This document shows, piece by piece, positions 16,811-33,230 of a DNA stretch of 33,230 nt (position 1 is the first letter of the stretch; each line of letters opens with the position of its first letter). The notes under the pieces are model-generated. The model worked only from the letters and a program-made list of their open reading frames with translations. It was not told the DNA's origin and ran no database searches. Where the stretch lies: assembly GCA_030533415.1 (NCBI GenBank), contig JAUNJE010000032.1:1-33230 (forward strand), given 5' to 3'. The stretch is from Eubacteriales bacterium. GTDB taxonomy: Bacteria > Bacillota > Clostridia > Oscillospirales > Oscillospiraceae. Position numbers and translations under genes: made by a program.

Positions 16811-17266
16811 CTATACTTTTCTCTGCATGTCAATGCTGCGGATGGAAAAGCCGCATTTCTGGTAGAAGGCCACAGCGCCTTCATTCTGGGGATAGACGCC
16901 CAATTGCAGGTCCGTGCAGCCGAAGGCCTTTGCCAGGGCATGGACATCGGCCATAATCTCCATGCCGATGCCCTGGTGCCGGAAAGCTTCCTCCACACAA
17001 AGCTCGTCCACCAGCATGACCCTTCGCTTGACCAGCCCCGGGTAGTCATAGTCCCGGATTACCAGCAGCACATAGCCCACCGGGATGCCGCCCACCTTGG
17101 CCACATACAGCTGACGTTCCTTTACCGCGCTTTGAAACCGCTCCTCCGAATACAGCTCCTCCGCCGCCTCAAAAAGGTCGGGCCGCCAGGAAACGTGCAT
17201 GGCATGAACCTGCCTTGCCAAAGCGTTGACCGCCTCCCGGTCAGCGCTTACCGCCAACTCCAGCAT
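16811..17266 (-). CDS. GNAT-family acetyltransferase
   Basis: A 151-residue single GNAT domain with VDELCVEEAFRHQGIGMEIM (acetyl-CoA loop, residues about 88-107) and the usual VYPQNEGAVAFYQKCGF end. The substrate is not evident. Its ATG overlaps the tyrS stop by one base (TGATG), so it is translated with tyrS and falls under the same tyrosine-responsive leader. The flanking stretch 16690-16810 carries only the upstream region of the AAC(6')-like gene. Confidence 0.9.
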   Translation of the reverse strand: MLELAVSADREAVNALARQVHAMHVSWRPDLFEAAEELYSEERFQSAVKERQLYVAKVGGIPVGYVLLVIRDYDYPGLVKRRVMLVDELCVEEAFRHQGIGMEIMADVHALAKAFGCTDLQLGVYPQNEGAVAFYQKCGFSIRSIDMQRKV

Positions 17267-18489
17267 CAGGCCAGCACCGCTTTGTGGAAGACCTTCTTGC
17301 CCTTGCGGATCTTCACGCCCTCCCGGAGCATTTCCCCCGTAACAGCAAAGGAGGCGGCGGGAACCTTTTCGTCATTGACAAAGACACCGCCCTGCTCCAC
17401 CAGACGGCGGGCTTCCTTATTGGAAGATGCCAAACCGCAGGCGGTCATCAAATTCAGAATGCCGATCTGACCATCCACCAGCTTGTCGGCAGGGATTTCG
17501 GTGGTGGGCATACTGGCGTCATCGCCGCCGCCAACGAACAGGGCCTTGGCAGAAGCCTGGGCCTTTTCCGCTTCTTCCGCGCCATGGACCAACTTGGTCA
17601 GCTCGTAGGCCAGAATCTCCTTGGCCTCGTTGATCTTGGCATCCTTCCAGGTGTCCATTTCGTTGATCTGCTCCAGGGGCAGGAAGGTCAGCATCCGGAT
17701 GCACTTCATGACATCGGCGTCGGCCACGTTGCGCCAGTACTGGTAGAATTCATAGGGCGTGGTTTTCTTGGGGTCCAGCCAGACGGCATTTCCGGCGGTT
17801 TTGCCCATCTTATTGCCCTGGGAGTCGGTCAGCAAAGTGATGGTCATACAGTGGGCATCCCTGCCCAGCTTCTTGCGGATCAGCTCGGTGCCGCCCAGCA
17901 TGTTGCTCCACTGGTCATTGCCGCCGAACTGCATGTTGCAGCCATAGTGCTTGAACAGGTGGTAGAAGTCGTAGGACTGCATGATCATGTAGTTGAATTC
18001 CAGGAAGGAAAGGCCCTTCTCCATTCTCTGCTTGTAGCATTCGGCCCGGAGCATGTTGTTAACGGAGAAGCAGGCGCCCACCTCCCGCAGCAGCTCCACA
18101 TAATTGAGGTCCAACAGCCAGTCGGCGTTGTTGACCATCTGGGCCTTTCCCTCGCCGAACTCGATAAAGCGCTCCATCTGCTTGCGGAAGCATTCGGCAT
18201 TGTGGTCGATGTCCTCTTTGGTCAGCATTTTGCGCATGTCGCTGCGTCCGGAGGGGTCTCCGATCATGGTGGTGCCGCCGCCGATCAGGGCAATGGGCTT
18301 GTTGCCGGCCATCTGCAGCCGCTTCATCAGGGTCAGGGCCATGAAGTGTCCGGCGGTCAGGCTGTCGGCGGTGCAGTCAAAGCCGATATAAAAAGTAGCC
18401 TTGCCACTGTCGATCATTTCCCGGATCTCGTCCTCATTGGTCACCTGGGCAATCAGGCCCCGGGCAACCAGCTCGTCATAGAGTTTCAT
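17266..18489 (-). CDS. tyrS: Tyrosyl-tRNA synthetase
   Basis: A 407-residue class I synthetase that charges tRNA-Tyr. It has the HIGH-like motif LTAGHFM near residue 45, NYMIMQSYDFYHL, GGNDQWSNM, and the KMSKS-equivalent KMGKTAGNAVWLD followed by TPYEFYQYWRN. A C-terminal S4 RNA-binding domain (LVEQGGVFVNDEKVP) completes it. The ATG at 18489, with AAGGAAG 9 bases upstream, is preferred to the TTG at 18495. It is second in a T-box operon, 18 bases after the M28 peptidase gene. Confidence 0.97.
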   Translation of the reverse strand: MKLYDELVARGLIAQVTNEDEIREMIDSGKATFYIGFDCTADSLTAGHFMALTLMKRLQMAGNKPIALIGGGTTMIGDPSGRSDMRKMLTKEDIDHNAECFRKQMERFIEFGEGKAQMVNNADWLLDLNYVELLREVGACFSVNNMLRAECYKQRMEKGLSFLEFNYMIMQSYDFYHLFKHYGCNMQFGGNDQWSNMLGGTELIRKKLGRDAHCMTITLLTDSQGNKMGKTAGNAVWLDPKKTTPYEFYQYWRNVADADVMKCIRMLTFLPLEQINEMDTWKDAKINEAKEILAYELTKLVHGAEEAEKAQASAKALFVGGGDDASMPTTEIPADKLVDGQIGILNLMTACGLASSNKEARRLVEQGGVFVNDEKVPAASFAVTGEMLREGVKIRKGKKVFHKAVLA

Positions 18490-18507
18490 TTTCAAATTCT
18501 TCCTTTC

Positions 18508-19443
18508 TTATACATGGACTGCGCCGCAGGTTATCAAGGTAATCAACGCCGCGCGCAGAATATTGACATTTGTCTGCTCCAAAATGGTATCGTTCTTCGT
18601 GTGGATTCTGCCAAGAAAAAGCCCTGCTTTTCCCTTGTTCAGGGCGCAGATGCCCACGCCGTAGGGGAAATTCGTCTGGTCGGAGGGGTACACGCAGAAG
18701 CCCTTTTCCTGCACCAGCACATTCTTTTTCCCGAAGTAGCCACAGGCTTTATAAAGGGATGTCAGCTTTTTCCGGTCCTTTTTCAGTTTTTTGGTGGGAA
18801 ACAGCCGAATATGATCCCCGTCCCCCACACAGTCCAGGTTCAGCACCAGCTGATTGTCCGTGGCCTTTTTGTGGGCCTTTCGGTAGGAGGCGGAGCCGAT
18901 CAGGCCCGCTTCCTCCAAATCAAACAGGACAAAGCAGACCTTGCCCCGCTGCTTTTCCGGCAGCGCCCGGGCGATTTCCAGCAGGGTAACGACACCGGAG
19001 GTGTTGTCATTGGCATTGTGCTGGTTTGCCGGGCCGGCTATCATCAGCACAATCAGCACCCATACGCAAAGATAGCCGGCAATACTGCCAATCCCCGGAT
19101 CTCCCGCCGCCAGGCCCACAAGCAGGCCAAAGGCAAACGCCGCAAAAAGGATCAACGCAGCAATCAGCATCTGATAGCCCAGGAAGGGCCAAAAATTGCA
19201 GGGGGTGATGAAATTCGGAAACGGCAGCCGCGCACAGGTGTCATAGTGGGCTGTGAGCAAATACTCCGCACCCTCAGGATCGCCCAGCACCAGGTTCCGG
19301 CTTCCCAGGCTTCCCGCTTCCACCCGGCTTTCATAGCCCAAGGACGCCGCATAGGATTGCACGGCATCCCGAAAGGCCTGCTTTTGCCGCTTTGACTTGC
19401 GCACAGGAAACGCGGTCAGTACATCCATAGGTTTTGCCAGCAT
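18508..19443 (-). CDS. M28-family peptidase with membrane helices inserted in the catalytic domain
   Basis: A 311-residue protein with the metallopeptidase M28 zinc ligands in order: His66 (TAHYDT), Asp146 (NDNTSGV), Glu177/178 (FDLEEAG), Asp204 (LNLDCVGDGD) and a late His (GRIHTKND, near 285). Between His66 and Asp146, residues about 84-137 are strongly hydrophobic and form two to three membrane helices, so the enzyme is probably membrane-bound with the insert bringing it to the bilayer. AGGAGGAGG precedes the ATG at 19443; the longer frame from 19524 reads through the T-box terminator. It is the first gene of a tyrosine T-box operon and may supply free amino acids from peptides when tyrosine is short (inference). 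Confidence 0.85.
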   Translation of the reverse strand: MLAKPMDVLTAFPVRKSKRQKQAFRDAVQSYAASLGYESRVEAGSLGSRNLVLGDPEGAEYLLTAHYDTCARLPFPNFITPCNFWPFLGYQMLIAALILFAAFAFGLLVGLAAGDPGIGSIAGYLCVWVLIVLMIAGPANQHNANDNTSGVVTLLEIARALPEKQRGKVCFVLFDLEEAGLIGSASYRKAHKKATDNQLVLNLDCVGDGDHIRLFPTKKLKKDRKKLTSLYKACGYFGKKNVLVQEKGFCVYPSDQTNFPYGVGICALNKGKAGLFLGRIHTKNDTILEQTNVNILRAALITLITCGAVHV

Positions 19444-19468
19444 TCTATCCCTCCTCCTTATGGTGGCA

Positions 19469-19731
19469 GCAAAATCGCCCTCTATCCATTGCGGATAGAG
19501 GGCGTAAATTTTACGCGGTACCACCTCTAATTCGGCACAGCCTCACGGCAGTGCCCTCACGGCGTCCAGCAACGCCTTCCGCTGTCTCGGGCGGGCCCGT
19601 CTGTCCCTACTGCTTTGTTCAGGACAGCCACTCCGGGAGGTATTTCGGCGGATTTTCCCACTGCCTTGCACCGGCCGGCAGTTCTCTGGCGGAAAACGGA
19701 ACGCTTACTTCTTCCCTTCACTGTGTTGCTT
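19469..19731 (-). promoter_or_regulatory. T-box riboswitch, tyrosine-specific by its specifier
   Basis: The minus-strand leader has the T-box AGAGGTGGTACCGCG (19514-19528) that pairs with uncharged tRNA ends. Just after it is a terminator stem (19476-19504, GCCCTCTATCC / GGATAGAGGGC) followed by GATTTTGC. Upstream, stem I carries AGTA (near 19703) and GAAATACC; the UAC at 19640-19642 sits in the specifier position and encodes tyrosine, matching tyrS downstream. When tRNA-Tyr is uncharged the antiterminator should form and the M28-tyrS-GNAT genes be expressed. Confidence 0.9.
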
Positions 19732-21568: not shown

Positions 21569-23218
21569 TCAATTCCTCAGCATTTCCTCCGCACTTTTCA
21601 GCGTGGTTTCGGTAATGTTCGCGCCGCCGATGATTCTGGCAAGCTCCCGTTTTCTGCCCTCCCTATCCAGAGGCGTCACGGAGGTATAGGTCCGGCCCTC
21701 CCGCTCGGATTTGGCAATCAGCAGATGGGTGTTGGCCAACGCGGCCAGCTGGGGCAGGTGGGTCACGCAGAGCACCTGCTTGTGGGCGGCTACGCTGCGC
21801 AGCTTCTCCGCCACCTTCTGGGCGGCCCGGCCGGAAACACCGGTGTCCACCTCGTCAAAAATCAGGGTGCCCACCTGGTCCTTTTCGGCCAAAACGTTTT
21901 TCATAGCCAGCATGATTCTGGCCAATTCGCCGCCAGAGGCCACCTTGCTCATGGGCTTCAGGGCCTCGCCCGCGTTGGCAGACATGTAAAACGCCACCGC
22001 GTCGGCACCGCTTGCCGTCAAGTCCAGCTCCCGAAACGCACAGGAGAACTGCACCCGGGGCATATCCAGCTGGGCAAGCTCCGTCAGGATTCGCTGGGAC
22101 AGGGTCTGCGCCGCGGCTTTGCGGCTTTCCCGGAGGGCAAGGGCACCTTCCCAGGCAGCTTTTTCCGCCTTTTGGAGCTTGCCCTTCAGCCGCTCTAAGT
22201 GGTCGTCCGCGAACTCGATGTCATCCAGTTCCTTCTTTGCCCTCTCCAGATATGCCAGAATGTCCCCGCAGGTAGCGCCGTATTTGCGGCGAAGCTTGTG
22301 GATCACATCCAGACGGGACTCGATCTGCTCCAGCTCATCGGCGGAATAGCTCAGCTCGTCCCGGGCATCCCGAACCTCCTCGGCCGCGTCCTGCACCTGA
22401 TACATGAGGTCCGCCACCCGGTCGTGGAGGCCGCCAAAGCTGTCGCTGAACCGGGCCAGCCGGGCAAGGGCGTATTCCGCCTGGGCCAGCAGCCCTGCGG
22501 CACCGTCGGTATCGTCGCTGCCGTAAAGGCACTCCACCGCCGCATCCATGCCGTTGCTCAGCTTCTCGGCGTTCTGCAAAATCTTGCGCCGCTCCTCCAG
22601 GGCATCGTCCTCCCCCGGCTCCAGCGCCGCCTTTTCGATCTCGGCGATTTGATATTTCAGCGTCTCCATGCGGCGCAGCTTTTCCCCTTCGTCCATGGTC
22701 AGATCATCGATCTCCCGCCGCAGTTTGGCCACCGCTTCATACTTTTGCGTATAATCCGCCCTTTTGTCCCCATTGTCCGCAAATGCGTCCAGGAAGGCCA
22801 GATGGTTGTCCTCGTCAAACAAGGAAGCGGAATCGTGCTGGCCATGGATGTTGATCAGCTGGATGCCGAGTTTGCGCAAAATGGACACGGATACCAGGCT
22901 GCCATTGACACGGCAGACATTCTTCCCGTCCAGGTAAATCTCCCGCTGGATCACTGTCTCCGGGTCGTACTCCACGCCATTGTCCACAAACCAGCCAAAT
23001 TCCGGAATGCCGGTAAACACCGCCCGGACAGAGGCCTTTCCGGCGCCGGTCCGGATCATATCCCGGTAGGCCCGCTCCCCAAGGATGGCGGAAATGGCAT
23101 CGATGACAATGGATTTACCGGCGCCGGTCTCACCCGTCAGGACGTTGAAGCCCTGGTCAAACGCAATATCCGCGCTCTCGATCACCGCGATATTCTCAAT
23201 GTGCAAAAGACTCAGCAC
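21569..23218 (-). CDS. recN: DNA repair protein RecN
   Basis: A 549-residue SMC-like ATPase for double-strand-break repair. The N-terminus MLSLLHIENIAVIESADIAFDQGFNVLTG is followed by Walker A GETGAGKS (about residues 30-37). A long central coiled coil (about 150-370) is followed by the ABC signature SGGELARIMLAMK and Walker B LIFDEVDTGVSGR near the C-terminus. The start is a GTG with GGGGGG upstream. It lies 25 bases after argR, the order argR-recN being common in Firmicutes. Confidence 0.97.
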   Translation of the reverse strand: MLSLLHIENIAVIESADIAFDQGFNVLTGETGAGKSIVIDAISAILGERAYRDMIRTGAGKASVRAVFTGIPEFGWFVDNGVEYDPETVIQREIYLDGKNVCRVNGSLVSVSILRKLGIQLINIHGQHDSASLFDEDNHLAFLDAFADNGDKRADYTQKYEAVAKLRREIDDLTMDEGEKLRRMETLKYQIAEIEKAALEPGEDDALEERRKILQNAEKLSNGMDAAVECLYGSDDTDGAAGLLAQAEYALARLARFSDSFGGLHDRVADLMYQVQDAAEEVRDARDELSYSADELEQIESRLDVIHKLRRKYGATCGDILAYLERAKKELDDIEFADDHLERLKGKLQKAEKAAWEGALALRESRKAAAQTLSQRILTELAQLDMPRVQFSCAFRELDLTASGADAVAFYMSANAGEALKPMSKVASGGELARIMLAMKNVLAEKDQVGTLIFDEVDTGVSGRAAQKVAEKLRSVAAHKQVLCVTHLPQLAALANTHLLIAKSEREGRTYTSVTPLDREGRKRELARIIGGANITETTLKSAEEMLRN

Positions 23219-23243: not shown

Positions 23244-23696
23244 TCAGCTCAGCAGGCCCTTGATCTCGCCGCAGAAAGCGGCGGCGGCGTTGGTATCGCG
23301 CATGACGATGATCACCGTATCATCTCCGGCGATGCTGCCAAGCACCACGCTCATATTCATGGCATCCAGCGCCGAGGCCGCCGCATTGGCAAGGCCGGGA
23401 AGGGTGTGGATGACGATAATGTTCTGGGCATAGTCAAAATTGGTGACGCACTCCCGAAAAATCGCATTTAACCGGCTGGAGAAGGTATTGGGAACCTCTC
23501 TGGCCGCAGTGGTGTAACGGTAGGTCCCGAAGCTGGTCAGCTCCTTTACAATGCGCAGTTCCTTGATATCCCGGGAGATGGTCGCCTGGGTGCTGGTAAA
23601 GCCGGCCTCCTGCAGCTCCTGCAAAAGCTGCTCCTGGGTCTCCACATTGGTTGTGGAAATGATTTCCATAATTTTTGCCTGTCTTTTCGATTTCAC
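23244..23696 (-). CDS. argR: Arginine repressor ArgR/AhrC
   Basis: A 150-residue regulator of arginine metabolism. The N-terminal winged helix (about 1-70) has QATISRDIKELRIVK. The C-terminal oligomerisation and arginine-binding domain includes the conserved GTIAGDDTV-type stretch, here LGSIAGDDTVIIVMRD. The start is GTG with GAGGTG 7 bases upstream, 13 bases after nadK. The cluster tlyA-nadK-argR-recN is a well-known Firmicutes arrangement, so the gene may be here by operon history and not as a local regulator. Confidence 0.97.
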   Translation of the reverse strand: MKSKRQAKIMEIISTTNVETQEQLLQELQEAGFTSTQATISRDIKELRIVKELTSFGTYRYTTAAREVPNTFSSRLNAIFRECVTNFDYAQNIIVIHTLPGLANAAASALDAMNMSVVLGSIAGDDTVIIVMRDTNAAAAFCGEIKGLLS

Positions 23697-23709: not shown

Positions 23710-24573
23710 TTATGCTTTCTTAAATTTCGCGTTGACCACATCATAAAAGCTGCGGTCCTTCAGCCGAACCAGCCTGGTTTCCAGGTGGGATTTTTTGATG
23801 GTTGCCACGTCGCCCATGCTCAGCCGCACCGCTTTGCCGCCGTCCACGCTGAGGTAGGCATTGCGCCGGGCATTCTGGGCCATTTCCACGGTGACAACGC
23901 GCTTGTCCGAGGCCACAAGGCAGCGGCTGTCCACATCGTGGGCACAGATGGGGGTAATCAAAATATTCTTTGCCTCCGGCTCCACAATAGGCCCGCCTGC
24001 GGAAAGGCTGTAGGCCGTCGAACCGGTGGGTGTGGCTACGATGATGCCGTCACCGCCGCACTCCATTGCCTGCACACCGTCGCATTTTACCGCCAGGTGA
24101 ACGATACGGGCAACGGCGCCCTTGGTGATCGCCACATCGTTCAGACAGATGTCGTGGAACATAATATCCCGTTCCCGCTGGACGGTGACGTCCAGCATCA
24201 TGCGGCTGTCCAGGGTGTATTCTCCCGACGCAAGCTTTTTCAGCTTGTCCAATTCGGTGCTCTCCAGCTCCGCCATGAAGCCCATCGTGCCGATATTCAC
24301 GCCCAGAATGGGGATTCCCTTTCTGGTTGCGGCCTTGGCCATGTGGAGGATGGTGCCGTCACCACCGAAGCAGATCACCATTTCGGCATTGGGCAGCTCC
24401 CGGTCCAGCCGGAAAAAACGCAGGTCCCTGGGCAGGTCATAGGTGCGGTCCACCTCAAAGGGCAGGCACAGCCTGGGCTGCAGCCCGGCCTCCTTCATGA
24501 TCTGCACAGCACTGCGGACTGTTTGAAAATTCTTATCCCGGTAGGGGTTGGGTGCCAGAATGATGTTTTTCAT
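23710..24573 (-). CDS. nadK: NAD kinase
   Basis: A 287-residue enzyme that phosphorylates NAD to NADP using ATP or polyphosphate. The diagnostic CFGGDGTILHMAK motif lies near residue 70. GINIGTMGFMAE-type (here GVNIGTMGFMAE), NDVAITKG and the TPTGSTAYSLSAGGPIV box follow. The ATG overlaps the tlyA stop by 4 bases, with GGAGG 7 bases upstream, which makes translational coupling likely. Confidence 0.97.
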   Translation of the reverse strand: MKNIILAPNPYRDKNFQTVRSAVQIMKEAGLQPRLCLPFEVDRTYDLPRDLRFFRLDRELPNAEMVICFGGDGTILHMAKAATRKGIPILGVNIGTMGFMAELESTELDKLKKLASGEYTLDSRMMLDVTVQRERDIMFHDICLNDVAITKGAVARIVHLAVKCDGVQAMECGGDGIIVATPTGSTAYSLSAGGPIVEPEAKNILITPICAHDVDSRCLVASDKRVVTVEMAQNARRNAYLSVDGGKAVRLSMGDVATIKKSHLETRLVRLKDRSFYDVVNAKFKKA

Positions 24574-25385
24574 TGGCCCGCCTCCTTGTCCAGCGCGGCA
24601 TGGGCCTGCTCCACCACCAGAGCGGTATCGGGGCGGATTCCCTCCGCCGCATCCAGGCTCAAATGGGCCAGAAATTCAATATTGCCCTCCGGTCCCTTCA
24701 CGGGAGAATAGGTCAGCCCCAGAATTTGGAACTGCAATTCCCCGGCCAGAGCAACGAAATCATCCAGCACCGCCTTGTGGGTGGCCTTTTCCCGGACGAC
24801 CCCCTTCTTCCCCACCTTCTCCCGGCCGGCCTCAAACTGAGGCTTGATCAGGCAAAGCACCTGCCCCGTGGGCTTTAACAGGGTTTTGATGGTGGGAAGG
24901 ACGATCCTAAGGGAGATGAAGCTGACGTCCACCACGGAGAGGTCAAGGGGTTCCCCCAGCTGTTCCGGGGTCACATAGCGGATGTTGGTGCGCTCCATCA
25001 CCACGACCCGCTCATCGGAGCGGATCTTCCAGTCCAGCTGTCCATAGCCCACATCGATGGCAAACACCTTTTTGGCCCCCTGCTGGAGCAGGCAGTCCGT
25101 AAAGCCGCCGGTGGAGGCGCCGGAATCGCTGCACACAAAGCCCTCCGGCTTTACACCAAAGTCCCGCAGCGCCTTTTCCAGCTTCAGGCCGCCGCGGCTG
25201 ACATAGGGGCAGGCGGCTCCCCGGACTTCAATGGGCACCGATTCCTCATAGGCGGTACCTGGCTTGTCGGCCTTCTGCCCGTCCACGTAAACCAGGCCGC
25301 TCATAATGATGGCCTGGGCCTTGGAGCGGCTGTCCGCATACCCCTGCTCCGTCAGCAGAACATCCAGTCTTTTCTTTACCTTCAC
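24570..25385 (-). CDS. tlyA: TlyA-family rRNA 2'-O-methyltransferase
   Basis: A 271-residue protein with an N-terminal S4 RNA-binding domain (KKRLDVLLTEQGYADSRSKAQ, residues 1-60) and an FtsJ-like SAM methyltransferase domain. The latter contains DSGASTGGFTDCLLQQGAKKV, an AIDVGYGQLDWK stretch, VVDVSFISL and LIKPQFEAG. TlyA enzymes methylate 16S and/or 23S rRNA riboses; some are called hemolysin A. The start is GTG, overlapping the dxs stop by 4 bases (GTGA), with GGAGGTG upstream. Bacillus members are called YqxC. Confidence 0.93.
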   Translation of the reverse strand: MKVKKRLDVLLTEQGYADSRSKAQAIIMSGLVYVDGQKADKPGTAYEESVPIEVRGAACPYVSRGGLKLEKALRDFGVKPEGFVCSDSGASTGGFTDCLLQQGAKKVFAIDVGYGQLDWKIRSDERVVVMERTNIRYVTPEQLGEPLDLSVVDVSFISLRIVLPTIKTLLKPTGQVLCLIKPQFEAGREKVGKKGVVREKATHKAVLDDFVALAGELQFQILGLTYSPVKGPEGNIEFLAHLSLDAAEGIRPDTALVVEQAHAALDKEAGQ

Positions 25386-27253
25386 CGGGACAGCACCTCC
25401 TCCGTATAGCGGGCAATGGACTGCGCGTCCAAGCCGCAGCGTTCATAAAGTTCCTTCTGGGAGCCGTGGGGGACAAACCCCCGTCCCAGGTCAATGCCGT
25501 CCACACGGCAGTCCGGGCACAGCCTGCCAAGTTCCCAGGCCAAAGCCTCCCGGATACCGGAACCTGCGCAAACCTCCTCCACCACAATGACCCGGCGGTT
25601 TTCGGAGAGCCTGTCCGCAGCCTGTTCCGCAGGCAGGTCGGAAAGGGTCATCAGGCGAAGAACCGTCGCCTCGATGCCCTGCTGCGCAAGAAGCGCGGCT
25701 GCTTCCATTACGTTTTCCAAAAGTGTTCCATAGGTAATCAGCGTCACATCTTTGCCCTGGCGGTGAACCTTGACAAGGCTGCCATCCAGCCCACGCCAGT
25801 CCGAGGCTTTATAGCTTCCTTCCCCACCTCTGGGATAGCGAACCGCGACTGGCCCATAATAGTCTTCCACCGCCCAGCGCAGCATATCCTGCTGCTCCTG
25901 AAAGCTTACAGGGGCCAATATCCGCATCCCCGGCACCTGGCGCAGGAAGCCCACATCAAAAATGCCGTGATGGGTGGGACCGTCGTCGCCCACCAGCCCC
26001 GCCCGGTCTATGGCCAGCACCACATGCAGCTGAAGCAATCCGATATCCTGCATGATCTGGTCGTAGCTGCGCTGCAGGAAGGTGGAATAAATCGCCACCA
26101 CGGGAATCATTCCCTGCTTGGCCAGGCCCCCCGCCATGGAAACGGCGTGTTCCTCCGCAATGCCCACATCAAAGGTACGGCTCGGGAAGGTCCGCTGGAA
26201 ATGCAGCAGCCCCGTGCCGCCGGGCATGGCCGCGGTGATGGCGCAGACTTTGCCGTTTTTCTCCGCCAGCTCCATCATGGCTTCGCCGAAGGAATTGGAA
26301 AAGGTTTTGGTCTTGGGGGCCAGCTTCTTGCCGGTAACCGGGTCAAATTTTCCGATGCCATGGAACTTCGCGGGGTCCTCCTCGGCAAATTTGTAGCCGC
26401 AGCCCTTCTTCGTGACCACATGCACCAGCACCGGCTCCTGCAGGTCCTTGGCGGCACTCAGCAGAGAGATCAGCCCCGGCAAATCATGGCCGTCTACAGG
26501 CCCCAGATAGGTAAAGCCCATATTTTCAAACATGGTGCTGGGCAGCAGAAAGCGCTTCAGGCGGTTTTTCAGGCGGCTGCTCAGCTGATACAACGCGTTG
26601 CCGCCGGGAAGCCCCTTGAGAATCTGACGGTAGATTCGCTTGGCGTCCAAATAGTCCTCACTGGAGCGGAGCCGGGACAGGTGGCGGGAAATGCCGCCGA
26701 CGTTCCGCCCGATGGACATGGTATTGTCATTTAGGATGATGACGATAGGCTCCCCGCTGACCGCCGCGTCATTCAGCCCCTCATAGGCCATGCCGCCGGT
26801 GCAGGCCCCATCGCCGATCAGGGCGACCACATGGTAATCCTGATGCTGCAAAGTCCTGGCCCGGGCCATCCCCAGGGCAATGGAAACGGAGCTGGAGGCA
26901 TGTCCCGCCACAAAGGCATCGGCATCGCTCTCCTCTGGCTTTGGGAAACCGGAAATGCCGCCATACTGCCGCAGATGCGCAAAATCCGCCCGGCGGCCTG
27001 TCAGCAGCTTATGCACATAAGACTGATGACCGACATCAAAAACCAGGCGGTCTTCCATTGTATTGTAAACGGTCTCAATGGCAACGCTCAGCTCCACCGC
27101 GCCCAAATTGCCGGCGAGATGCCCGCCGGTTTTCGAGACGCTGGAAATCAGGAACTCCCGAATCTCCCCGCACAGTTGGGTACGCTCCTCCTCTGTGAGG
27201 GACAGCAAGTCTTCGTGACCGTTGATGCTTTCTAAAATGTCCACGATCGACAC
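25382..27253 (-). CDS. dxs: 1-deoxy-D-xylulose-5-phosphate synthase
   Basis: A 623-residue thiamine-diphosphate enzyme that joins pyruvate and glyceraldehyde 3-phosphate in the MEP isoprenoid pathway. Motifs: AGHASSSVSIALGMA, thiamine-binding GDGACTGGMAYEGLNDA with NDN downstream, FDVGIAEEHAV, and the transketolase C-terminal domain. Full family length. The start is GTG with a weak ribosome site (TTAGGTT), only 9 bases after the oapA stop, so re-initiation from oapA is plausible. ispA, xseA and xseB, which usually lie upstream, are absent from this window. Confidence 0.96.
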   Translation of the reverse strand: MSIVDILESINGHEDLLSLTEEERTQLCGEIREFLISSVSKTGGHLAGNLGAVELSVAIETVYNTMEDRLVFDVGHQSYVHKLLTGRRADFAHLRQYGGISGFPKPEESDADAFVAGHASSSVSIALGMARARTLQHQDYHVVALIGDGACTGGMAYEGLNDAAVSGEPIVIILNDNTMSIGRNVGGISRHLSRLRSSEDYLDAKRIYRQILKGLPGGNALYQLSSRLKNRLKRFLLPSTMFENMGFTYLGPVDGHDLPGLISLLSAAKDLQEPVLVHVVTKKGCGYKFAEEDPAKFHGIGKFDPVTGKKLAPKTKTFSNSFGEAMMELAEKNGKVCAITAAMPGGTGLLHFQRTFPSRTFDVGIAEEHAVSMAGGLAKQGMIPVVAIYSTFLQRSYDQIMQDIGLLQLHVVLAIDRAGLVGDDGPTHHGIFDVGFLRQVPGMRILAPVSFQEQQDMLRWAVEDYYGPVAVRYPRGGEGSYKASDWRGLDGSLVKVHRQGKDVTLITYGTLLENVMEAAALLAQQGIEATVLRLMTLSDLPAEQAADRLSENRRVIVVEEVCAGSGIREALAWELGRLCPDCRVDGIDLGRGFVPHGSQKELYERCGLDAQSIARYTEEVLSR

Positions 27254-27262
27254 AACCTAACG

Positions 27263-27841
27263 TTATTTTTTCTTTTTCGCGAAGAGGTGGTTCAAGGCAT
27301 AGATCACCCGGCCCACCATGTGCACGATCTGCGTGCAGGAATTGACGGCAAAGGTCTTGCCGATGGCCTTGCCGCCCACGGTCAGGCCCGCTACCAGCGC
27401 CGACATGACCAGAGATACCCCTCTTGGCCAGCCCACATCCACATGTGTCAGCATCAGCGCCGCAATGGTGGCGGAGGCGGAACCGGAGACAACGCCGCAG
27501 ATGTCGCCAACCACATCATTGCAGATGGAGCTGACACGCTCGGCGTTTCGCAGCAGGCGAATCGCCTCATGGGCGCCGGGAACCTTCCGGGCTGCCATAG
27601 AATGGAAGGGCTTTTCATCGGCGCTGGCCACCGCCATACCGATGACGTCAAACACGATACCCAGAAGAATAATGATCAGAAGAATCAAAAACGCAATGCC
27701 AATGCTGCTGTTTTCCATGACCTCATCCGACACCAGGGAAATAATGCCGGAAATCAGAATGGTTACCAAAAAAATCGTGACGACCCATTTGATCGTCTTG
27801 TTTCGCTCCCGTTTGGAAGCGGCCGGGTCGGTTTTCGCCAC
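27263..27841 (-). CDS. oapA: OLE-associated membrane protein OapA (DUF21-like)
   Basis: A 192-residue integral membrane protein with a basic N-terminus and about four hydrophobic helices (about 17-37, 45-70, 115-135, 140-165). Between them are FDVIGMAVASADEKPFHSMAARKVPGAHEAIRLLRNAERV and a highly basic C-terminal KKKK. The middle resembles the DUF21 domain of CNNM/CorB magnesium transporters. Known: OapA binds OLE RNA, localises it to the membrane and is implicated in Mg2+ homeostasis. Assignment rests on location directly between the OLE RNA and dxs, size and topology. The start is GTG with AAAGGTG 7 bases upstream. Confidence 0.85.
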   Translation of the reverse strand: MAKTDPAASKRERNKTIKWVVTIFLVTILISGIISLVSDEVMENSSIGIAFLILLIIILLGIVFDVIGMAVASADEKPFHSMAARKVPGAHEAIRLLRNAERVSSICNDVVGDICGVVSGSASATIAALMLTHVDVGWPRGVSLVMSALVAGLTVGGKAIGKTFAVNSCTQIVHMVGRVIYALNHLFAKKKK

Positions 27842-27879
27842 AAAAAGTCACCTTTTATCAAAGTTTTATAAAATGACGG

Positions 27880-28484
27880 CGGCAGGCAGGATAAATCTTA
27901 CGGCTTAGGTCGGGTTGTATTTCACCGGACAGAACCTGCCGTTGCCGTACAGGCCGTTTCCATTTGATCCGTCCGCCCAAGCGTTGCCAAAATGGGTACC
28001 CGATTGCCACTTAGACCGTACTGTAATCCCCTGCCTGCCCTGTTAGGACAGCCTAGGTGTTTTCCACGGCAGAATGCGCCATAGTCTTAGCCTCTTTTGC
28101 AAGCATGGTTTCCAGGAGCGATGACGGCAGCGGCAATGGCCATAGCCGCCTGCCGCCTGTCTCTTTCCCCACATGCCCACTCAAGGCAGGCTACGCTGCA
28201 CGCAGCACACGATTCTGTGCACCGCCTTGCAGGTTCATACCTGATTCGTACGCGATCGGAACCCCTTCCGGGGTTTCGGCCGTCGTCGCACAAGCTTCAG
28301 GTCTCCACGGAAACCGGGTCGGATGCGCCATGCCGTTGGCGCGCGCCCGGAATCCTTAACCCCCAGCATCCACCCTAAACTGGGCGTAAAAAGCAGACAC
28401 CAGGGACTTCATCGATGTGCCCTTCAAAGGATTTTTAGGCCCTTCTTGGAAAATGGCCACTCCGACTAGGATACTGCACCGTCG
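27880..28484 (-). ncRNA. ole: OLE RNA (ornate large extremophilic RNA)
   Basis: About 600 bases of strongly structured, apparently non-coding sequence transcribed from the promoter at 28491-28519 straight into oapA. It has many hairpins, for example AACCCC-GGAA-GGGGTT at 28260-28275, and several CAGGTATGAACCTG-like and CTGCGTGCAG stems. Small frames inside have no ribosome sites. Length near 610, the oapA gene immediately downstream, and the dxs-tlyA-nadK-argR-recN order are the known features of OLE loci. Its known partners form a membrane RNP linked to Mg2+, cold and alcohol stress in Bacillus halodurans. Ends are approximate. RNase P and tmRNA signatures are absent. Confidence 0.85.
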
Positions 28485-28490
28485 CCGTAT

Positions 28491-28519
28491 ATATTAGCAT
28501 ACTTTCGATGAATATACAA
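28491..28519 (-). promoter_or_regulatory. OLE operon promoter
   Basis: On the minus strand TTGTAT and TAATAT are 17 bases apart in an AT-rich stretch, with the transcript expected to start near 28484. It would drive the RNA, oapA, dxs, tlyA, nadK, argR, recN and the ASCH gene. Confidence 0.7.
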
Positions 28520-28599: not shown

Positions 28600-29067
28600 C
28601 TACCGGTTCCGGAACAAGTCCTCCACAATATCCGCGTGGGTCACGGCGATTTCGATATCCGCGATCTCCTCCTTGGAAAAGAACCGCAGCTCCCTGGATT
28701 CGGCGCTGATGCGCATTTGGGGCGCCTCCTCAAAATCCAGGCCATAAACCACGATGACCATACGCCAGACGCTGCCGTCCCGGTAGGCGGCGATGCGGCC
28801 GGGGTCATCATAGACCGCCAGCTTTTGAAATCTGTCCTTCGGGACGCGGACGCCCAATTCCTCATAGACCTCCCGGGCGATGGCGTCCCGGCCGGTCTCG
28901 GTTTTCTTGCAGCCGCCCCCTACCAGTCCCCAGGTGTTGGAATCCCGCCGCCGTTCCAGCAGGAGCTTTCCCTTGCAGGTGATGATGGCGTTGGCTCCCA
29001 AATGGGCGGGCATGGTGGTTTTGGGCGCATTTTTCGGGTCCCCCCGGTAAAAAGTTACGATTGACAT
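28600..29067 (-). CDS. Nudix hydrolase
   Basis: A 155-residue hydrolase of nucleoside diphosphates linked to another group. The Nudix box is complete: GGGCKKTETGRDAIAREVYEELGV, i.e. G-x5-E-x7-REVYEELG-V (residues about 60-85), within an alpha/beta Nudix fold. The ATG at 29067 with GGGAGG 7 bases upstream replaces a longer frame beginning at 29154. Substrate unknown. It sits just upstream of the OLE promoter on the same strand but is separated by an AT-rich gap. Confidence 0.92.
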   Translation of the reverse strand: MSIVTFYRGDPKNAPKTTMPAHLGANAIITCKGKLLLERRRDSNTWGLVGGGCKKTETGRDAIAREVYEELGVRVPKDRFQKLAVYDDPGRIAAYRDGSVWRMVIVVYGLDFEEAPQMRISAESRELRFFSKEEIADIEIAVTHADIVEDLFRNR

Positions 29068-32881: not shown

Positions 32882-33230
32882 GGGGCCGTACTGGTTTCGA
32901 CGGGGGTAGTGAGGCTGGAATAGCGGGCCGTGGCGCCTGGCCACGATAAAACGGGCAATTTTCTAAATTTAACTGACAACAAAACTGTTGCCCTGGCTGC
33001 CTAATTAGGCGCCCATCCGCCCCGGAAGGTCCACGAGCCGGGCTCGGGTGTGATTTGAGTGGAGACCGTGCGTATGGTAAGCTTTGCCCATACCATGCAT
33101 CATGAAGCTACTGATTCCCGTAGGGTGTTTGTTCCCGCCGGGATGAGGGAATGTAAATAACAAACTGCGCCCGGAGAAGTTCTTTCCAAGTTGCTTTCGG
33201 ACAGGGGTTCGATTCCCCTCGGCTCCACCA
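32882..33230 (+). ncRNA. ssrA: tmRNA (transfer-messenger RNA)
   Basis: A 349-base tmRNA ending in CCA at the last base of the window. Its 5' GGGGCCG pairs with 3' CGGCTCC before ACCA, and GGGTTCGATTCCCCT is the T-arm. The reading frame to the TAA at 33002 encodes a tag ending TDNKTVALAA, the usual ending for Firmicutes ClpP-directed tags. In frame, the tag would read GNFLNLTDNKTVALAA from GGC at 32954; the exact resume codon is uncertain. smpB is 0.6 kb upstream. Confidence 0.97.

Follow-up and report, generated by a model that had tools for sequence, protein, structure and literature searches.

The window, by which is meant the whole stretch of 33,230 nucleotides analysed here, carries an OLE RNA and the gene for its membrane protein OapA in the known gene order. 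The best explanation, in which we have good confidence, is that this is a structurally maintained OLE ribonucleoprotein (RNP) locus of a Faecousia-type gut bacterium, in whose genus a protein of the MpfA type may stand in for the indispensable part of the task. A wider claim concerns the relatives of this bacterium, and here the arguments appear to us evenly balanced: within one gut genus, the OLE RNP would have been lost as a module on several occasions, taking ole, oapA and often oapB, and always in a lineage that has an MpfA/CorC-type protein, these proteins falling into at least three unlike subtypes, and the state with neither is absent from the 115 genomes that can be judged. Such a within-genus exchange between OLE and MpfA, together with decay of oapB, is possibly new; a full-text search of a limited literature collection found no paper on OLE loss within a genus.

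OLE RNA, OapA and their host

The OLE RNA (RF01071) occupies positions 27860–28498 of the minus strand, and was identified by cmscan (441.8 bits, E 9.9e-127) and by covariation in 32 relatives. The match covers the full model (positions 1–616 of 616), with a gathering score of 50 for comparison, and thus bears out the first-pass annotation, which had claimed an OLE RNA here and named the Rfam search as its test. It is the sole match in the bacterium's own genome (2.72 Mb in 80 contigs, 88% complete). The upper-case consensus letters of the model are matched at 222 of 249 positions, and among the open reading frames of at least 60 aa inside the stretch the largest, of 100 aa, lies on the opposite strand. 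Upstream, a sigma-70-type promoter (28491–28519, minus strand) can be read from the sequence, with TTGTAT at 28519–28514, a spacer of 17 bases and TAATAT at 28496–28491. Judged by eye, 16 of the 17 relatives compared have such a promoter ahead of OLE, the exception being locus L120 of Papillibacter cinnamivorans DSM 12816. Because the first bases of the model overlap the -10 box, the true 5' end of the mature RNA probably lies near 28484–28488.

Directly downstream, oapA (27263–27841, minus strand) starts with GTG and encodes a membrane protein of 192 aa. This product, singled out for checking by the earlier annotation, is OapA: it carries the DxxxD motif at D109 and D113, has OLE upstream of it, and matches the Pfam domain CNNM (the former DUF21) at 16.2 bits, below the cut-off of 28.4. 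The DxxxD motif is described as the mark that sets OapA apart from CNNM domains (excerpts of PMC11332333), and both aspartates are invariant in two sets of sequences (14/14 and 27/27). A PDB search with OapA gave no match at E values up to 10. Among the best 80 of 555 confirmed OapA matches in named genomes, OLE lies upstream of OapA in 78 loci, and in the remaining two OapA starts at or near a contig end. The following genes, all on the minus strand and recognised by Pfam domains, are dxs (25382–27253), a tlyA-like gene with S4 and FtsJ domains (24570–25385), nadK (23710–24573), argR (23244–23696) and recN (21569–23218; SMC_N/AAA_23, named from position and domains). The order from OLE and OapA through dxs, tlyA, nadK and argR to recN, also proposed at first pass, is thereby confirmed. 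On the other side, the upstream neighbour of OLE is a Nudix hydrolase gene (28600–29067, minus strand; Pfam NUDIX), which, by its spacing to dxs in relatives, served as the upstream reference for comparing loci with and without OLE.

The nearest relatives among the best 80 of the 555 OapA matches are gut MAGs of Oscillospiraceae, whose sources include the rectum of sheep, the cecum of roe deer, rabbit and chicken (the last two origins taken from isolate names). Lower among the same 80 stand isolates such as Papillibacter cinnamivorans, Sporobacter termitidis and Paenibacillus turpanensis. One member of the window's genus (G127) has exact 400-base stretches in common with Candidatus Faecousia intestinigallinarum (DVKX01000058.1), so that the genus appears to contain Candidatus Faecousia, and the sampling sites of its kin suggest a mesophilic host. 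A total of 297 genomes was searched, comprising 136 of the genus (including the window's own), 45 of other genera of the family and 116 of other families of the order. OLE was found in 158 of them, and the same search gave no match in 14 control genomes. OapA was matched in 162 and occurs together with OLE in 157, that is, in all OLE-bearing relatives except G088. Of the five genomes with OapA and without OLE, four belong to the genus and have OapA at or close to the end of a contig; the fifth, G281, has a weak match.

The earlier annotation had presented the locus as a surprise, an OLE RNA outside its usual hosts, and this part of it falls away. OLE is commonplace among these relatives, in agreement with the 2,822 Bacillota assemblies reported to carry it, which include the gut clades TANB77 and RF39, mainly with shortened variants (excerpts of PMC11332333). 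A gut host was therefore rejected as a novelty; Oscillospiraceae and Faecousia are not among the clades named in those excerpts. The copy in the window is complete and ordinary-looking, and since OLE in gut Bacillota has already been published, it is not new in itself.

A few relatives depart from the usual arrangement. OLE and OapA are about 2.5 kb apart in G164 and 1.7 kb apart in G277, and lie on separate contigs in G181 and G205. Two OapA genes are present in G185 and in G043; the latter also has two dxs genes, four CNNM matches and 6% contamination, and may therefore be a mixed genome.

Relatives lacking OLE and their MpfA-type proteins

Since missing contigs could mimic the absence of OLE, absence was called among the 115 of the 136 genus members in which dxs was found. 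OLE or OapA is present in 104 of them, and 11 have neither; in the 11 dxs loci, neither cmscan (E up to 0.01) nor nhmmer found OLE. MpfA-type proteins (CNNM, E below 1e-6) are encoded by all 11 OLE-less genomes and by 15 of the 104 OLE-bearing ones (Fisher 1.1e-8, which is not a clean probability because the species are related). A domain scan of ten such proteins, each from a different OLE-less genome, showed that all ten combine CNNM, CBS and CorC_HlyC; that of the eleventh genome, G133, is 94% identical to that of G001. The twelve MpfA proteins of the 11 genomes form three groups, with 25–40% identity between groups. Their membrane part is distantly related to OapA, as judged from the weak CNNM match of the latter. 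Whereas the OLE system is an RNP, the MpfA/CorC family consists of protein only and has cytoplasmic domains that OapA is without; it also does not carry the DxxxD motif (excerpts of PMC11332333). MpfA/CorC is thus proposed as a stand-in for the OLE system and not as a member of it.

Incomplete assembly is a likely cause of the absence of OLE in 13 other genus members, which have neither OLE/OapA nor MpfA and all of which were without a dxs match; for the 11 with dxs it was rejected. Thirteen genomes outside the genus also have neither OLE nor MpfA, and at least three of them (G146, G147 and G269) are at least 90% complete, so that the rule of OLE or MpfA is not absolute. In the window's own genome no CNNM protein passes the Pfam cut-off, the two weak matches being OapA (18.4 bits) and a 478-aa frame (14.3 bits); as this genome is 88% complete, an MpfA may have been overlooked.

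At the locus itself, the distance from the Nudix gene to dxs is 241, 240 and 216 bases in the OLE-less genomes G001, G133 and G059, as against 1,317 to 1,403 bases in 11 of the 12 OLE-bearing loci measured (two of the 12, L091 and L211, come from one genome). These spacings indicate a simple empty site in three genomes, belonging to two lines. The site is not conserved in the other 8 of the 11: in G119 the Nudix gene is 2,817 bases away, and in the other seven loci no Nudix gene was found within the stretch fetched. As a separate observation, the distance is 2,269 bases in G107 (L216), about 900 more than usual, with both OLE and OapA present.

A Dxs tree of 114 rows (112 from the genus and two outgroups; LG+G4, short search) was used to count the changes; it excludes G107 and G024, whose dxs is partial, as well as G039 and a second dxs of G043, also partial. 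The presence of OLE requires six changes on this tree, and the starred branches impose six for the OLE-less group. In 200 pairings of six independent pairs, MpfA moved opposite to OLE in a mean of 4.8 pairs, showed no difference in 1.2 and moved in the same direction in none (sign test, median p 0.0625). OapA and Dxs distances agree across 98 genomes (Spearman 0.58; 0/500 permutations as high). Loss of OLE is favoured over gain because of this agreement, because of the empty site and because 104 of the 115 genus members have OLE; both outgroups of the tree also bear OLE, but they were chosen for that.

The strongest objection to an exchange is that the absence of OLE and the presence of MpfA are linked by shared ancestry or by incomplete assemblies, with no functional replacement. 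We consider this unlikely, though it deserves real weight, given that the genomes are draft MAGs of related species, that the sign test rests on about six independent changes, and that MpfA also occurs in the 15 OLE-bearing genus members mentioned above; the last two points also count against the exchange itself. The contrast within the genus was, however, counted only where dxs is present, and it repeats at greater distances: MpfA-type proteins occur in 1/10 OLE-bearing versus 30/35 OLE-less genomes in other genera of the family, in 6/47 versus 61/69 in other families of the order, and in 20/158 versus 111/139 in all 297 genomes. Moreover, the MpfA proteins are of three dissimilar subtypes, and in no pairing did MpfA move in the same way as OLE.

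An exchange in which MpfA stands in for the OLE RNP also agrees with published work. MpfA has been reported to anticorrelate with OLE (excerpts of PMC11332333), and cross-rescue between OLE and MpfA is mentioned as unpublished data (excerpts of PMC12265935). The genus data fit, at close range, this idea of interchangeability. If the exchange is real, OLE would be kept for a task of which an MpfA-type metal-ion device is also capable. The genus offers near relatives with and without the OLE module, in three cases with a locus that otherwise matches, and oapB decays alongside, so that the published proposal of MpfA as an all-protein counterpart becomes testable among near kin instead of distant phyla. 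The OLE-less relatives with a protein of the metal-transporter type would be natural test cases for the function of the OLE RNA.

OapB, OapC and the question of a cis-acting leader

The first-pass annotation had suggested looking for oapB and oapC elsewhere in the genome, and both are present. OapB is encoded at G000:C73:151885-152154, between map and infA (131.5 bits in a profile search). The profile was built from nine proteins at map-infA junctions, one of which matches PDB 7k9b (OLE-associated protein B; E 5.1e-6). The KOW domain (PF00467) was rejected as a route to OapB, being too short and unspecific, and the map-infA junction was used instead. OapC is an L7Ae protein that scores 62.8 bits as YbxF against 23.1 as YlxQ, and its gene adjoins rpsL and rpsG, which were recognised by eye.

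Among genus genomes with a readable map-infA junction, where map is not truncated, 55/56 OLE-bearing ones encode oapB versus 2/7 OLE-less ones; the gene is decayed or missing in the other 1/56 and 5/7. Two genomes with a truncated map match (G076 and G057) were dropped from this count, as was G107, which has only a distant paralogue of map, and six genomes of uncertain OLE state, without a dxs match, were excluded (five with oapB, and G046 without). Within the OLE-less group, G059 has oapB as fragments, and in G060, G062 and G072 the gene is absent from a short map-infA spacer. G035 and G106 have kept oapB without OLE, which runs counter to a strict rule. The single OLE-bearing genome with a decayed oapB is G027 (53% complete), which nevertheless has a full-length OLE RNA of 451 bits (L321, G027:C21; L030, G027:C23); the P12.2/P13 loops of this RNA look normal in the 32-row alignment described below. 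If this pattern reflects loss as a module, the main task of OapB in these bacteria would be the OLE RNP. OapC was found in 80 of the 136 genus genomes, and in 65/104 OLE-bearing versus 4/11 OLE-less members, counts that come from a single-sequence search with a divergent query and are affected by missing contigs.

The OLE RNA might instead act mainly in cis, as a structured leader that regulates oapA and dxs, in place of a role as an independent RNP. It is preceded by the promoter and followed by oapA-dxs on the same strand, which would suit a leader, as would the OLE-form promoter that is found within 200 bases before the dxs match in all 11 OLE-less loci (nine by pattern, and those of G035 and G106 by eye). 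However, oapB is encoded at another locus and still decays in 5/7 OLE-less genomes, and in Halalkalibacterium halodurans OLE occurs in abundance as a free RNA, about 630 bases long, to which several proteins bind (excerpts of PMC9723947). A mainly cis-acting role is thus quite improbable.

Conservation of the fold and proposed function

The fold of the OLE RNA is maintained by selection. In an alignment of 32 OLE RNAs from the genus and near kin, drawn from about 100 sequences and with one genome counted twice (L107 and L027), 89.7% of 4,855 cells are paired. Changes on both sides occur in 70 of the 154 pairs, whereas shuffled alignments have a mean of 43.0 such pairs, and none of 500 shuffles reaches 70. 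Structures slid along the alignment reach at most 45.5% paired cells and 35 two-sided pairs, a comparison that tends to favour the unslid structure because it was taken from the Rfam alignment of the first row. Some pairs of the model (columns 113-125, 114-124, 150-190, 341-411 and 356-397) are broken in nearly every row, so that parts of the Rfam structure are not valid in this lineage. As a side observation, the OLE match of G143 (G143:C84:1-841) is 841 bases long (355.5 bits), suggesting an insertion of about 200 bases.

The loop stretches CCUAAAAAUCC, GCCCA and GGCAU and the palindrome GGCC are invariant in 32/32 rows. They can be assigned to the dimer contacts described for OLE RNA (excerpts of PMC12265935 and PMC12286853), which would make them the A-rich loop of P4, the loops of P5.1 and P6.1, and the palindrome of P9; the helix names are our own assignment after the first of these papers.

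The RNA of the window itself forms standard pairs at 142 of the 154 gap-free model pairs, a further 5 pairs falling in gaps; the 12 non-standard pairs could mark a relic without function, but several of them (e.g. columns 113-125, 114-124 and 150-190) are non-standard in nearly all relatives and so look like lineage features, and there is no damage to the conserved letters, the reading frame of oapA, oapB or oapC, which leaves this explanation hardly credible.

The OLE RNP locus of the window resembles that of H. halodurans: all model positions are matched, the loops are conserved, oapA lies directly downstream and is followed by dxs-tlyA-nadK-argR-recN, and oapB and oapC are in the genome. 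It differs in its host, an uncultured gut relative of Oscillospiraceae, and in the lineage-specific non-standard pairs of some helices. With OLE variants 1 and 2 (from TANB77 and RF39) it shares a gut host. In these variants, however, parts of P7–P9 are shortened or missing and OapB and OapC are mostly lacking (excerpts of PMC11332333), whereas the RNA of the window aligns over the whole model and both proteins are encoded in its genome. The published class of full-length RNAs is defined by a bit score of 390 on another model, and this cut-off was therefore not applied here.

In H. halodurans, the OLE RNP is membrane-bound and is needed under cold, ethanol and Mg2+ stress (excerpts of PMC9723947). 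What is known of its membrane localisation, protein binding and stress phenotypes comes from H. halodurans only. In the window, ole and oapA stand behind one promoter and ahead of dxs; oapB and oapC are encoded at other loci of the genome. By extension from the studied relatives, the following mechanism may be proposed. The OLE RNA would dimerise via its P4, P5.1/P6.1 and P9 loops, OapA would hold it at the membrane, and the RNA with OapA, OapB and OapC would constitute a device for stress and Mg2+ homeostasis. The comparisons within the genus suggest further that an MpfA/CorC-type membrane protein may take over the indispensable part of this task, after which ole-oapA would vanish from the operon and oapB would often decay. 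We infer that the device works likewise in this gut bacterium, and that its indispensable task may overlap with that of MpfA-type proteins.

Two other structured RNAs were noted in the window. A T-box leader (19495-19730, minus strand; 116 bits) precedes a frame of 338 aa resembling a peptidase (18508-19524) and then a tyrosyl-tRNA synthetase-like gene (17266-18495), both named by eye. A tmRNA gene (32882-33230, plus strand; 163.6 bits) lies at the very end of the window; in the OLE-less G059, tmRNA likewise ends the corresponding stretch, and smpB and the Nudix gene are also common to both.
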